Assembly: GCF_002864685.1 (NCBI RefSeq)
Contig: NZ_NMQZ01000007.1
Coordinates: 1 to 64,000, forward strand
Source: Alloalcanivorax mobilis
GTDB lineage: Bacteria > Pseudomonadota > Gammaproteobacteria > Pseudomonadales > Alcanivoracaceae
DNA: 64,000 nucleotides
Direction: 5' to 3'
The notes beneath the pieces are model-generated. The model worked only from the letters and a program-made list of their open reading frames with translations, was not told the DNA's origin and did not search any database. This document shows positions 8,121 to 59,125 of this stretch, in pieces (within the stretch, counting starts at the first letter, position 1; each line of letters starts with the position of its first letter). A program made the position numbers and the translations under genes.

Positions 8121-8246
8121 GCTCCTACAAAAAGACAAACCCCTCTACAGCGCCGCCCTGTAGGAGAGGCCGGGCGGCGTTCCGCCCAGCCAGCGACGTC
8201 TTTTGGTCGAATGGCACGCCCCTGTTGCCCGGCACCGGATGGTTTG
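8121..8246. repeat. Degenerate copy of dispersed palindromic element
   Basis: The right arm (8159-8197), beginning TGTAGGAGAGGC and ending CCAGCGAC, is nearly the same as that of the element at 40215-40319, and the conserved tail TCGAATGGCACG follows. The left arm is mostly lost, leaving GCTCCTACA at 8121-8129. No heptamer array is attached here. It sits between the convergent metallophosphoesterase and CoA-transferase genes, where it may act as a terminator (TCTTTT follows the right arm). Confidence 0.7.
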
Positions 8247-8311
8247 GGTGGCAAGCGTTCCAAGACCCCCAAGATCGACCGCCTACGCTTGAACGCAAAC
8301 CAATGCCGCCA

Positions 8312-30984: not shown

Positions 30985-30998
30985 GAAGAGGCGCGTCT

Positions 30999-31110
30999 GA
31001 CGTCGGACGTCGGGCGCGAAGATCAAAGTCCAAGCCGTCGCTGGCTGGGCCTGCTCTTACGCGGGGTTGTGTAGGAGCAGGCCCAGCCAGCGACGGTTTT
31101 GTCTTTTTGG
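30999..31110. repeat. Compound heptamer-palindrome element, degenerate copy
   Basis: A short array (GACGTCG-GACGTCG-GGCGCGA) is followed by AGATCAAAG and then by a long inverted repeat with 24-base arms at 31037-31060 and 31071-31094 (one mismatch), beginning GTCGCTGGC. The right arm runs into GGTTTTGTCTTTTT, so it can serve as terminator of the PHB depolymerase transcript. Same design as the two copies at 40 kb. Confidence 0.75.
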
Positions 31111-36473: not shown

Positions 36474-37790
36474 GTGAGCCCCCGTGTTGCAGGGTGCTGG
36501 CTGGGGCCGCCGCTGGCCTTGCTGCTGGTGGCGGCGGTGGCCTGGCGGGCGTGGCTGCCGGACACCGTGGCGGCGCGCATCGACGGTGTGCCGCTGTCCC
36601 GCGAGGTGCTGAGGGTTTTCCTGGTCAACGCCGAGGCCGCCGCCGATCACGGCGAGCCGGTCACCGAGCGGCAGGTGCTGGCCGGGCTGATCGACGTTCA
36701 CCTGCTGGGCCGCTGGTATCGTTCCGAGCGCTGGGCGCACCGGCCGCCGGAGCGGGTCGGTTACGACCGCGCCAGCCGCGAGCGTCGCCAGCTGTACCTG
36801 CTGGTGCGTGGCGCCTACGCCGCCGAGCTGGCGCGGGCGTTGCACGAGGACGGCCGTCAGTCGCCGCTGGCCTATCTGCTCGAGCCGCCGGCTCTCGATG
36901 TCGACGCCCTGGCGCCGCTGCTCAAGGTGGAACCCGGCCTGTACGCCACCCTGCCCGAGACCCGCGCCGACGCCGCCCGTGGCTATGTGCTGGCGCACTA
37001 CCGGTTCGCCGGTGGCGAGCGGCGCAGCGTGACGTTATGGCAGCTCTACCAGCGCCAGAATCTGCAAATGAAGGTGCAGTTCCAGGCGCTTAACGTGGCC
37101 GCCATGGGCGAGGCACTGCGCCAGTTCATGGCGGAAGCGTACGTGCTCGACTGGTTCGAACGCCGTGCCGGCCTGCCCGAGCTGGATCGCCGCTGGGTAC
37201 GGCAACTGGTGGCGGACGCGGAAGATCAGCGAGCGCTGGTCTATGCGTTGGGCCTCAGCGATGATCCGCACGATGACAACCCGCTGTTGCGGCAGCAGGC
37301 GGCGGCGATCCGCCCGGCGGCGATCCGCGATTTTTATCGCCGCCATCGGCGGGACTTTGAACGGGTCGAGGCGGTGCGCGCCGGCGTGCTGCGTCTGCCG
37401 TCCCAGCAACTGGCGGATCGGGCCTACCAGAGCCTGCGCCGGGGCACGCCGGCGACGGCGCTGGCGCGCATGGAGGGCGTGGCGTATCAACCGCCGCACT
37501 GGATCGATCGCGGCAGCGGCCACCCACGGTGGCTGACCGGTTTCGCCTTTGTTCAGCAACCCGGCCAGCCCTCCGCGCCGGTGCGTGCGCCGCTGGCGGA
37601 CCCGCCGGCGCACTGGGTGATACTGCTGGTCGAGGAACGTCGCCTGGGCTATCAGGACCCGGCCAGCGAAAGCGTGCGTTATCAGGCTTCCATGGCGCTG
37701 GCCCACCAGGCATTGCAACGGCGCTTTGAGCAGGGCCTGACGCACTGGCGTTCGCGCAGCGTGTTACAGATCAATACGGAGATTCAATGA
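36474..37790 (+). CDS. Membrane-anchored parvulin/SurA-like peptidyl-prolyl isomerase
   Basis: 438 residues: one N-terminal membrane segment (LGPPLALLLVAAVAWRAW), then a periplasmic chain. DGVPLSREVLRVFLVNAEA and LIDVHLLGRWY are like the N-terminal chaperone region of SurA/PpiD, and IRDFYRRHRRDFERVEAVRAG opens a parvulin-like domain (to about 400) with RAYQSLRRGTPATALAR and WIDRGSGHP. Active-site residues are not convincing, so it may be a chaperone without isomerase activity. It starts at GTG seven bases after the phospholipase-like gene and overlaps the next ATG by four bases. Most likely a dedicated folding helper for the upstream secreted enzyme. Confidence 0.65.
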   Translation: MSPRVAGCWLGPPLALLLVAAVAWRAWLPDTVAARIDGVPLSREVLRVFLVNAEAAADHGEPVTERQVLAGLIDVHLLGRWYRSERWAHRPPERVGYDRASRERRQLYLLVRGAYAAELARALHEDGRQSPLAYLLEPPALDVDALAPLLKVEPGLYATLPETRADAARGYVLAHYRFAGGERRSVTLWQLYQRQNLQMKVQFQALNVAAMGEALRQFMAEAYVLDWFERRAGLPELDRRWVRQLVADAEDQRALVYALGLSDDPHDDNPLLRQQAAAIRPAAIRDFYRRHRRDFERVEAVRAGVLRLPSQQLADRAYQSLRRGTPATALARMEGVAYQPPHWIDRGSGHPRWLTGFAFVQQPGQPSAPVRAPLADPPAHWVILLVEERRLGYQDPASESVRYQASMALAHQALQRRFEQGLTHWRSRSVLQINTEIQ

Positions 37791-38437
37791 TGAAACGGCT
37801 ATGGATGGCATTGATGGTGTTGGTGGCGATGACCCTGGCGTGGTGGGGCTGGGCCGGTGAACGCGGGGCGCCGGCCCGGCCGGGCCCGCCGAGCAATGTG
37901 CCCACCGCCACCAAGGCGGCGTTGCCGGCACCGCCGCCCGCCGCTGGTGGCACGCTGCCGGCCACGCCTCGGCGCAACACCGCGCAAGACGTGGCGCGCC
38001 CGTCGTCGTCGCCGGTGGCGACGGGCGGCATGGCGCTGCCCCGCTTGCGTGCCGAGGCGGTGGCGTCGCTGCGTTACGCCCGCGTGCACGGTGATCCGCG
38101 CCGGCCGCCGCTGGCGCCAGCGGCGGCGACGCGGATCCTGCCCAGCGACGAAGAGCTGGCTGATCCGGCGCTCTATCAGCGCTATGAACAGCGCCAGAAC
38201 CAGCGGGTGTACGCCTCGTTTCTGGCCGCCTCGGAACAGAAGATCAGGCAGTTGGCGCCGCTGGTGGCGCGCGCCGAACGGGAAGGCATGGCGCCGGCGC
38301 AACTGGCTGAGGGGCAGCGCAAACTGCAAGGTCTCAAAGACCGCCGCAAGGAAATGCTGGAACGCTACCCGCAATTGCAACCGGTTCAGGACACCGGGCC
38401 GGTGTCCGACCTGAATCAGGACAGCGCCGAACGCTAA
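37787..38437 (+). CDS. Membrane-anchored periplasmic protein, unknown function
   Basis: 216 residues, no recognised family. An N-terminal membrane anchor (LWMALMVLVAMTLAWWGWAG) is followed by a Pro/Ala-rich unstructured stretch (about 25-80), then a charged helical C-terminal half (LYQRYEQRQNQRVYASFL, RAEREGMAPAQLAEGQRKL) likely to form a helical bundle. The plan (anchor, Pro-rich linker, helices) resembles lipase chaperones (Lif) in outline, though I see no Lif motif. The ATG overlaps the foldase-like gene's stop. It probably completes a three-gene secretion or folding unit with the phospholipase-like enzyme; that is inference from packing. Confidence 0.55.
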   Translation: MMKRLWMALMVLVAMTLAWWGWAGERGAPARPGPPSNVPTATKAALPAPPPAAGGTLPATPRRNTAQDVARPSSSPVATGGMALPRLRAEAVASLRYARVHGDPRRPPLAPAAATRILPSDEELADPALYQRYEQRQNQRVYASFLAASEQKIRQLAPLVARAEREGMAPAQLAEGQRKLQGLKDRRKEMLERYPQLQPVQDTGPVSDLNQDSAER

Positions 38438-38489: not shown

Positions 38490-39866
38490 CTAGAGCTTCC
38501 GCACCTTGAAACGCTTGCCCTTGATGCGGCCTTCGCTGAGGCGGCGCAGGGCCTTGTCGGCCACGTTGCGCCGCACCGCCACGAAAGCGACCTGATCGAG
38601 GATATCGATCTTGCCGATGCTGGCGCCATCCAGGCCGGCGTCGCCGGTCAGCGCGCCGAGAATGTCGCCGGGCCGCAGCTTGTCCTTGCGGCCGCCCTGG
38701 ATGCACAGAGTGTGGTGGCTGGCGGTGAGCGGGCTGATCAGTGGCGCGCCGAGAGCGGCGGCGGCCGGGGTGGTGGCGTCGAGGCCCAGATCGGCGGCCA
38801 GCCGTTCCAGCTTAAAGCGCTCTTTTTCCACCAGCAGCGTCACCGCCAGACCGCTTTGGCCGGCGCGGCCGGTGCGCCCGATGCGATGCACATAAACATC
38901 CGGGTCGCGCGGCAGGTGGTAGTTGATCACCAGTGGCAGGTTTTCCACATCCAGCCCGCGCGCGGCCACGTCGGTGGCCACCAGCAGGGCGGCGCTGCCG
39001 TGCTTGAAGCGGATCAGCACCTGGTCGCGATCGCGCTGATCGAGATCGCCGTGCAAAGCCAGGGCCGGAGTGCCGCGCTGTTCCAGCCAGGCGCACAGTT
39101 CGCGCACTTGCTCTTTGGTGTTGCAAAACACCACCGCGGCGCTGGGCCGGGTGTGCGCCAGCACGCGGCTGAGATCCTCGGCCAGGGCGTTCGGTTCGCT
39201 GAGGTAAAACCTCTGCTCGATGTCGCTGGCCTGGTGCCGGCTCTCCACCGTGACCCGCTGTGGCTGCCGTTGAAAACGGCCGCTCAGGCTCTGGATGTCG
39301 TCCGGGTAAGTGGCGGAGAACAGCAGCGTCTGGCGCTCGGCGGGCAGGGTGCCGATGATCGCCACCATCGCCTCCATGAAACCCATGTCGAGCATCCGGT
39401 CCGCCTCGTCCAGGACCAGGGTGGTGGCCTGGCTCAGATCCAGGGTGCCCTTGCGCAGATGATCCTGAATCCGCCCCGGCGTCCCCACCACCACATGGGC
39501 GCCGTGTTCCAGCGAGCCAATTTGTGGGCCGATCGGCTGTCCACCGCACAGGGTCAGCACCTTGATGTTGTCCCGGTAGCGCGCCAGCCGGCGGATTTCC
39601 TCGGCGACCTGGGTGCTCAACTCCCGGGTGGGGCAGAGCACCAGCGCCTGGCAGCCGAAAAAGCGCGGGTTGATGCGCTCCAGCAAGGCGATGGCGAAGG
39701 CGGCGGTTTTGCCACTGCCGGTTTTCGCCTGGGCGATCAGGTCGCGGCCGGCCAGGGCCACCGGCAGGGCCTGCGCCTGAATCGGCGTCATCGAGAGATA
39801 GCCCAGGCTGCGCAGATTGCTGATCTGATCGGCGGGAAGAGGCAGGCTGTCAAAGGCGTCGGTCAC
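38490..39866 (-). CDS. dbpA: ATP-dependent RNA helicase DbpA
   Basis: 458-residue DEAD-box helicase, the length of E. coli DbpA. The Q-motif MTPIQAQALP, Walker A AKTGSGKT, PTRELSTQ, VLDEADRM, SAT, HGDLDQRDRD and HRIGRTGRAG are in order, and the C-terminal DbpA RNA-binding domain (GDILGALTGDAGLDGASIGKIDI, then IKGKRFKVRKL) recognises hairpin 92 of 23S rRNA for 50S assembly. The start is GTG at 39866; a longer frame merely translates the heptamer array upstream (SGVRRPA repeats) and is rejected. Confidence 0.93.
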   Translation of the reverse strand: MTDAFDSLPLPADQISNLRSLGYLSMTPIQAQALPVALAGRDLIAQAKTGSGKTAAFAIALLERINPRFFGCQALVLCPTRELSTQVAEEIRRLARYRDNIKVLTLCGGQPIGPQIGSLEHGAHVVVGTPGRIQDHLRKGTLDLSQATTLVLDEADRMLDMGFMEAMVAIIGTLPAERQTLLFSATYPDDIQSLSGRFQRQPQRVTVESRHQASDIEQRFYLSEPNALAEDLSRVLAHTRPSAAVVFCNTKEQVRELCAWLEQRGTPALALHGDLDQRDRDQVLIRFKHGSAALLVATDVAARGLDVENLPLVINYHLPRDPDVYVHRIGRTGRAGQSGLAVTLLVEKERFKLERLAADLGLDATTPAAAALGAPLISPLTASHHTLCIQGGRKDKLRPGDILGALTGDAGLDGASIGKIDILDQVAFVAVRRNVADKALRRLSEGRIKGKRFKVRKL

Positions 39867-39933
39867 GGCGGGCTCGCGGAGTGGCGAAGGGGGTGCGCAG
39901 TATAGCGGCCCGGGGCCGCCGGGGGCAGGGTCG

Positions 39934-40140
39934 GGCGCTGGACGTTGGACGCCGGACGCCGGACGCCGGACGCCGGACGCCGGACGCCGGACGCCGGACG
40001 CCAAGATCAAAACCCGTCGCTGGCAGGGCCTGCTCCTACAATAAACACGCCTCTCTACAGGGCCGCCGTAGGAGTAGGCCCTGCCAGCGACGTTTTTTAG
40101 CCGAATGGCACGGCGTTGTTGCCCCGCACCTGAGGGTTTC
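39934..40140. repeat. Compound repeat copy 1: heptamer array plus palindrome
   Basis: About nine 7-base units (GACGCCG, first ones GGCGCTG and GACGTTG) at 39934-40002, then AAGATCAAAACCC, then a long inverted repeat with 24-base arms at 40016-40039 and 40068-40091 (one mismatch) that begins GTCGCTGGCAGGG. The right arm is followed by TTTTTT and a conserved tail GCCGAATGGCACGGCG ... CACCTGAGGGTTTC. The T-run makes it a good terminator on the plus strand. Lies upstream of dbpA. Confidence 0.88.
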
Positions 40141-40142
40141 TT

Positions 40143-40369
40143 CGCCGGACGCCGGACGCCGGACGCCGGACGCTGGACGCTGGACGCCGGACGCGAAGAT
40201 CAAAATCAAAACCCGTCGCTGGCAGGGCGGGGCGCCGCCCGGCCTCTCCTACAAACACACCCAACCCGGCTACAGGGCCGTGTAGGAGAGGCTGGGCGGC
40301 ATTCCGCCCTGCCAGCGACGTCTTTTAGCCGAATGGCACGGCGCTTTTGCTCCGCACCTGAGGGTTTCG
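40143..40369. repeat. Compound repeat copy 2: heptamer array plus palindrome
   Basis: Second, head-to-tail copy of the preceding element. About seven GACGCCG/GACGCTG units (40143-40194), AAGATCAAAATCAAAACCC, then an imperfect inverted repeat with 39-base arms (40215-40253 and 40281-40319), and the same tail GCCGAATGGCACGGCG ending near 40369. The middle of the arms differs from copy 1, and arm length is greater, so the copies are related but not a recent exact duplication. Confidence 0.88.
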
Positions 40370-58964: not shown

Positions 58965-59125
58965 GTTGAAAGTTACAAGTTAAAAGTTGAAAGCGCGGTA
59001 GCGCCTGGGGAGGGCGCCGGGCCGTGGTGTCCGCGCGGAAGGCTAAACACCAGGCCCGGCCGAAGGCCGTGGATGTTGGGGGGGGCCGGCCGGGCCCTTT
59101 TAACTTTTAACTTTCAACTTTTAAC
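58965..59125. repeat. Inverted GTTRAAA heptamer element after fabG
   Basis: Four 7-base units (GTTGAAA, GTTACAA, GTTAAAA, GTTGAAA) at 58965-58992, a GC-rich core of about 105 bases, then four units of the complementary type (TTTTAAC, TTTTAAC, TTTCAAC, TTTTAAC) at 59098-59125. The arms can pair into an A/T-rich stem around a GC core. Located between fxsA and the 3' end of fabG, both on the minus strand, so it may stop fabG transcription. Confidence 0.82.

Follow-up and report, generated by a model that had tools for sequence, protein, structure and literature searches.

GTAG-type REP doublets beside heptamer arrays in Alloalcanivorax mobilis: possible non-coding representatives of an inverted-repeat element family with heptamer arms

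Background

The STRRs of cyanobacteria are dispersed 7-bp tandem repeats. Other bacterial heptamer arrays consist of TAACTGA (PMC4679880) or, in Geobacter, of GGACCGG (PMC2700814), and the GGGAATC arrays of Xanthomonas form 70 convergent pairs in Xcc and 75 in Xac (Rehm 2015, PMC4692102). Heptanucleotide repeats are reported to be over-represented in bacterial genomes, an excess for which these sources give no accepted cause (PMC4692102, PMC4679880). REPINs and BIMEs built of GTAG-type REPs are described together with their RAYT transposases (Bertels and Rainey 2011, PMC3116915; Di Nocera 2013, PMC3733652), and intervening sequences of 23S rRNA with an S23p/IVP reading frame have been called selfish, the S23p/IVP protein being listed without known function (PMC4990558). 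The open-access literature, with subscription papers and preprints largely outside it, yielded no paper in which heptamer arrays are connected to REPINs or to PF05635.

Here we analyse a locus of Alloalcanivorax mobilis, a marine oil-degrading bacterium, in which arrays and REPs stand side by side. The window, i.e. the whole stretch of DNA that was analysed, comprises 64,000 nt at the start of contig NZ_NMQZ01000007.1 (assembly GCF_002864685.1); the genome measures 4.10 Mb in 92 contigs.

Structure of the locus

Two head-to-tail units occupy window positions 39932-40367, each running from a heptamer array through an A-rich linker and a REP doublet to a tail. In the first unit the array (CGGACGC)10 (39932-40002, plus strand; 10.1 copies according to TRF) is followed by the linker AAGATCAAAACCC (40003-40015, plus strand, read from the sequence), by a doublet at 40016-40091, in which a minus-strand REP (40016-40039) and a plus-strand REP (40068-40091) enclose a spacer of 28 nt, and by a plus-strand tail (40092-40139) that was delimited by sequence comparison and ends in CTGAGGGTTT. 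The second unit repeats this plan with the array (CGCCGGA)7 (40143-40194, plus strand; TRF, 7.4 copies), the linker GAAGATCAAAATCAAAACCC (40195-40214, plus strand, likewise read from the sequence), a doublet of long REPs at 40215-40319 (minus-strand REP 40215-40252, spacer 29 nt, plus-strand REP 40282-40319) and a plus-strand tail, again delimited by comparison, with the same end (40320-40367). The inverted-repeat arms measure 31 nt with 90% complementarity in the first palindrome and 46 nt with 87% in the second, and a 71-nt stretch containing the tails is common to both units at 92% identity. Arrays, linkers, inverted repeats and tails bear out the composite repeat that the original prediction had described, and the fold z-scores (first palindrome -9.8, second -13.2, entire feature -12.4) show that the structure is not due to chance.

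In both palindromes two REPs (GTAGGAG...GCCAGCGAC) stand head to head, and the doublet combines the GTAG-type head and imperfect palindrome of a REP with the opposite orientation and short, hairpin-forming spacer of a REPIN, so that its designation as REP-like was apt. The four REP copies of the feature alternate in orientation (-, +, -, +) with 28, 123 and 29 nt between them, as is characteristic of BIMEs; 28-29 nt is the head-to-head and 123 nt the tail-to-tail spacing, and a heptamer array lies inside the long spacer. Both arrays have the period of 7 of the Xanthomonas-type arrays. They and both linkers point in the same direction (plus), and an inverted partner that would make a convergent pair was found for neither array at this locus. 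Four G-tracts of at least three, as in a G-quadruplex, do not occur, the unit GGACGCC having G runs of two. The T-run that had been counted as part of the design fared poorly: a scan for intrinsic terminators was at background, with one site against 0.5 expected, away from the T-runs.

The feature lies after the stop of a gene for an MscS-type channel and before a DEAD-box/DbpA helicase gene, both on the minus strand. In relatives (L066, L067, L069, L073) a gene like that at window 37787-38437 directly adjoins the MscS-type gene; here the DbpA-type helicase gene (38490-39868) and the repeats separate the two. The window also holds a third, smaller composite of short array, linker, REP doublet and inverted linker (about 30998-31105, plus strand) and a palindrome of the same family with a tail and without an array (about 8122-8248, plus strand). 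A further heptamer array, (CTTTTAA)4, was noticed at 59097-59125; an inverted partner lies no more than 400 bp away.

Distribution of REP palindromes and heptamer arrays

A query of linker, palindrome and tail found at least 70 matches in the A. mobilis genome (40 of 88 candidates scored), which supports the predicted proliferation of the palindrome unit. Among 12 congeners the same query gave one 26-base match each in two and none in ten. The heptamer pattern matched 270 times in A. mobilis versus 0 for a reversed control, 392 times in genome G012 and 55 times in G005, while four more congeners had 8, 7, 4 and 2 matches and six had 0. Of 194 genomes sampled from the order, two contained a stricter pattern, and both belong to this genus. 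A scan for unit plus linker in named genomes retrieved 46 stretches, of which all 26 from Alcanivorax sp. 24 have arrays; Alloalcanivorax xenomutans contributed one stretch with one array, and the 19 others have none. The palindrome is close to species-specific, and the arrays have a patchy, genus-level distribution.

The search for a RAYT gene that the prediction had proposed was successful. Three A. mobilis genes exceeded the cut-off for Y1 transposases, none of them on the window's contig, and one, L002, matches the NCBIfam family of REP-associated tyrosine transposases (NF047646) at 138.6 bits (cut-off 80). Eight REP heads of the related class GTGGGAG surround it, and the window's exact REP class is absent there; a REP of the GTGGGAG class replaces one half of window-family palindromes at L023, L046, L048, L053 and in the 'GC' pair of C34. 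Heptamer arrays accompany none of the 31 RAYT/Y1 loci of the genus, and RAYT was therefore rejected as the mobiliser of the arrays.

The coupling of array and palindrome, which the prediction had regarded as fixed, goes beyond chance but does not amount to an obligate unit. In 464 kb, an array is found at most 150 bp away from four of seven REP loci, where random intergenic placement leads to 0.24 (P 0.0002); the window itself contributes three of the seven loci, and once these are set aside two of four are near an array. The 54 REPs of the window's class in the stretches analysed carry the linker at their foot in 20 cases, the tail in 18 and neither in 16, and an array lies within 150 bp of 11, 6 and 2 of these, respectively, fractions that are biased upward since most stretches had been chosen by similarity. 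None of 13 head-to-head doublets has the same module on both sides, and linker and tail keep a fixed order in five. At C34:56754-56981 a REP core is flanked by both arms. On the other hand, palindromes of A. mobilis also occur without arrays (L047, L049, L050, L059, L060), and G012 and G005 are rich in arrays without the palindrome. Independent occurrence across genomes, which the prediction itself had named as fatal to a composite element, is thus largely what we found: array and palindrome are separate layers, often joined.

In 609,790 bp of the A. mobilis genome, a 15% sample chosen partly for matches, we counted 142 arrays with two or more units. Neighbouring arrays (at most 220 bp apart) form 67 pairs, of which 56 converge, 8 diverge and 3 point alike (2 + 1), and a reversed-unit control gave 4. 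The gap between convergent arrays is 70-93 bp in 41 of the 56. Three convergent pairs with overlapping arrays were excluded from the core tabulation and from the gene-placement count; the inner edges of nearly all 53 tabulated pairs read GACGCT-AAACCC on one side and GGGTTT-AGCGTC on the other, ends that are common to cores A, B and one C. Core A (GTGTTTCCTG...CAGGAAACAC) occupies 25 elements, core B (TTGCGGCTACGCA) 16, and the other 12 include A+B fusions, short cores and one both-armed REP core. The sequence of linker 1 likewise recurs in this genome next to arrays that enclose other cores. A likeness of the AAC...GTT ends to integron attC sites was considered and dropped. At L106 (11996-12106) and L113 (7978-8074 and 11108-11185) of G000, convergent arrays of the TTTTCAG/ACTGAAC type have almost no core.

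The lengths of the two arms of an element are independent of each other (Spearman 0.17, P 0.24), as is their unit make-up (P 0.37) except in the GGACGTC class (r 0.71); homogenisation of arms by template switching is therefore not supported. Among the tandem arrays of unbiased 400-kb samples, 22 of 36 from G000 and 6 of 13 from G002 have period 7, with several different units.

Frames in sister species and around PF05635 genes

At two unbiased loci of G002 (L127), a REP doublet of another class stands between (GTTGACA)4 with its A-rich linker on one side and the inverted array on the other. The 26-base arm pattern (at most 3 mismatches) has 93, 21, 9 and 75 matches in G002, G001, G011 and G012, against 37, 9, 3 and 32 for the pattern written backwards, a control that is not small because the arm itself is repetitive. 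The 21 frames examined in sister species enclose REP heads in 14 cases, an IS3 copy in 3, a PF05635 gene in 1 and other cores in 3 (locus L263 was left out). Their arms agree without mismatch in 10 of 21 and differ at up to 6 of 30 positions, and frames stand at the same junction in two species at L266/L276, L272/L278 and L275/L279. The three IS3-containing frames of G002 (1.3-1.4 kb; L260, L261, L262) hold copies of one IS3-family element inside the core; it has its own ends and is read as an insertion, and IS3 was rejected as the mobiliser of frames.

The framed gene of 118 codons belongs to PF05635 (23S_rRNA_IVP; 90.5 bits, cut-off 33.8), and its relatives include the solved structure 2RLD. 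Its link to the window runs through this one bridging locus, L273, in another species and with arms that differ at 5 of 30 positions. No PF05635 gene was found in the 609,790 bp (15%) of the A. mobilis genome and tblastn gave no match in the window, so that no S23p/IVP reading frame inside inverted arms was seen at the window copies.

Plasmids provided further PF05635 relatives. Among 25 plasmid records retrieved by tblastn, 19 were examined (five unlisted records and H19 were left out), and 17 of these loci have a period-7 array within 300 bp of the gene, 16 on both sides and 14 with an inverted partner. Periods 6 and 8-11 are absent from the 19 loci and period 5 occurs once. Of 1693 random 360-bp segments taken from comparable records, 31 have an array on one or the other side and none on both, a contrast that is somewhat generous, as the segments were not limited to intergenic places. 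Some loci are not independent (L280, L282 and L285 form one family, L296 and L297 another); after collapsing, 14 of 16 have an array. The array-framed loci belong to Cyanobacteria, Bacteroidota, Spirochaetota and Chloroflexota, with at least ten unit sequences among the plasmid loci, and several arrays touch the gene. The two loci without an array are L287, which has a 44-bp inverted repeat instead, and L292, the sole Bacillota locus, whose unannotated gene was given ends guessed around the match. At L288 and L290 the PF05635 unit lies between cas2 and cas1, and its arrays are A-rich and weaker. At L288, L290, L296, L297 and L292 the PF05635 gene is flanked by genes whose annotation is CRISPR, DISARM/BREX or type I restriction. 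In viral contigs no PF05635 gene was confirmed, and two phage records matched.

Interpretation

We read the feature, with moderate confidence, as GTAG-type REP doublets that are attached to, or lie within, non-coding members of a family of heptamer-armed inverted-repeat elements. The sequence shows the inner part to be a REPIN- or BIME-like doublet of GTAG-type REPs in opposite orientation, and comparison shows the outer part to consist of 7-bp tandem arrays and an A-rich linker with AAACCC...GGGTTT ends, around a core that can be a REP doublet, another hairpin or, in relatives, a gene. Because they have neither an inverted partner array nor a reading frame, the window copies are at most decayed or chained members of this family. 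Such palindromic, non-autonomous elements would spread within the genome, the REP part probably mobilised by the RAYT-type Y1 transposase and the armed frame by another enzyme, perhaps with help from the four-helix-bundle protein of the coding members. They would persist directly after stop codons, where they do least harm, and their arms may lengthen and shorten by slippage of 7 bp on each side independently. Where inverted arms are transcribed, a long hairpin would form in the 3' region of the mRNA and probably be cut by RNase III, by analogy with the intervening sequences of 23S rRNA. Against this reading, neither excision nor transposition nor a duplication of the target was observed, and the like orientation of the two window arrays also speaks against it.

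Tentatively, and with more doubt than confidence, the convergent arrays may be the signature ends of an unrecognised mobile family of several phyla, whose coding members carry PF05635 (S23p/IVP) and in which the period of 7 is set by the machinery of that protein and not by the sequence; its non-coding members would be the arrays of Alcanivorax, whose cores are REPs, hairpins or short. If true, such a family would explain both the bacterial heptamer excess and the role of S23p. The association of PF05635 genes with arrays (17 of 19) and the arms around REP doublets make these two matters testable together, and the heptamer-edged hairpins and the surroundings of PF05635 genes hint that two unexplained oddities of genomes are one kind of element. 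REP doublets nested in a second family would also bear on how the spread of REPINs and the domestication of RAYT are read.

Alternatively, the feature could comprise ordinary REPINs or BIMEs in whose long spacer a slippage-prone heptamer has grown by polymerase slippage at the hairpin bases, with no separate element. We consider this unlikely, though it accords with the BIME-like alternation of the window REPs, with the dominance of period 7 and with the independent variation of the arms. Gene junctions give a divided answer. The junction that we take to be bamB-der measures 17 bp in G006 and G009 and holds other REP-type palindromes in several other genomes, a pattern that favours gain or loss of elements and answers the prediction's call for empty sites. 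At the junction that we take to be mutL-miaA, in contrast, a convergent array pair stands in frame at the putative start of miaA in two species, G000 (GGACGTC) and G012 (GGACGCC), at loci L028 and L252. The units are degenerate in G011, number two in G001 and G002 and are missing from eight genomes; these states could also fit local growth without transposition. Slippage fails to account for the 25 core-A and 16 core-B elements, which have arms and ends without a REP doublet, or for sister-clade arms that stay fixed while their cores differ, and by itself it gives no reason for PF05635 genes inside arms.

It is less probable still, and in our view doubtful, that the elements are functional 3' RNAs, selected because the long hairpin of the arms terminates transcription or protects the mRNA, with their spread being secondary. 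Their position is in keeping with such a role. A purpose-made gene caller based on codon usage placed 37 of 53 elements between co-directional, 9 between convergent and 3 between divergent genes, 3 at edges and 1 inside a gene, the last probably a caller error. The stop is the nearer side in 33 of the 37 co-directional cases, with 1 tie (P 2e-7), and the median distance is 6 bp to the stop versus 89 bp to the start; 29 of the 37 lie within 15 bp of the stop, and divergent gene pairs make up only 3 of 49. The inner stem of core A covaries modestly (0.107 versus 0.071 in shuffled alignments, reached in 0 of 500), but pairs with changes on both sides are near the shuffles (5 versus 3.2, 46 of 500). 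Core B, of which one arm alone is conserved, has no covarying pair and was rejected as a conserved RNA; the alignments comprised 23 of the 25 A cores and 14 of the 16 B cores. Rfam gave one chance-level match (15.8 bits, cut-off 40) outside the feature and tRNA alone in 12 element loci, so that no known RNA family identifies the feature. Arrays frame a terminator-like hairpin at L037 of G000 and at its counterpart L098 of G006, in favour of an RNA role, and the shared junction shows that some elements are old; against it, presence at the same junction differs between species and the terminator scan stayed at background. At one junction of G010 (L237) inverted 7-bp arrays of two different units are nested.

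That array, palindrome and tail form one obligate transposable unit is very improbable, despite the fixed order of linker and tail in some doublets and the enrichment of arrays near REPs, and a single composite transposon was rejected because the layers occur apart both in A. mobilis and across the genus.

Comparison with known systems

As dispersed 7-bp tandem repeats, the arrays resemble those of TAACTGA, the GGACCGG arrays of Geobacter and the STRRs. Their units differ from TAACTGA (PMC4679880) and GGACCGG (PMC2700814), and inverted framing of palindromes was not found described in the accessible portions of these two papers. With the Xanthomonas arrays (PMC4692102) they share 7-bp units in 2 to more than 10 copies, convergent pairs, a position near stops and rarity between divergent genes, but the unit is another one without G-tracts of three, and the cores here are REP doublets or hairpins; no core or gene between the arrays was found described in the accessible portions of that paper.

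Like the intervening sequences of 23S rRNA (PMC4990558), we deal with small elements bounded by inverted repeats and able to carry a PF05635 protein. In contrast to them, the present elements are intergenic and outside rRNA, their arms are heptamer arrays, and the window copies have no such reading frame. REPINs and BIMEs (PMC3116915, PMC3733652) differ from the window feature in that here the long spacer or the flanks hold heptamer arrays with linker and tail, and the REPs around the RAYT gene are related and not identical; what they share is the inverted doublet with its short spacer and GTAG-type head, the dispersed intergenic copies after genes, the tandem clusters and a RAYT gene in the genome with REPs around it.
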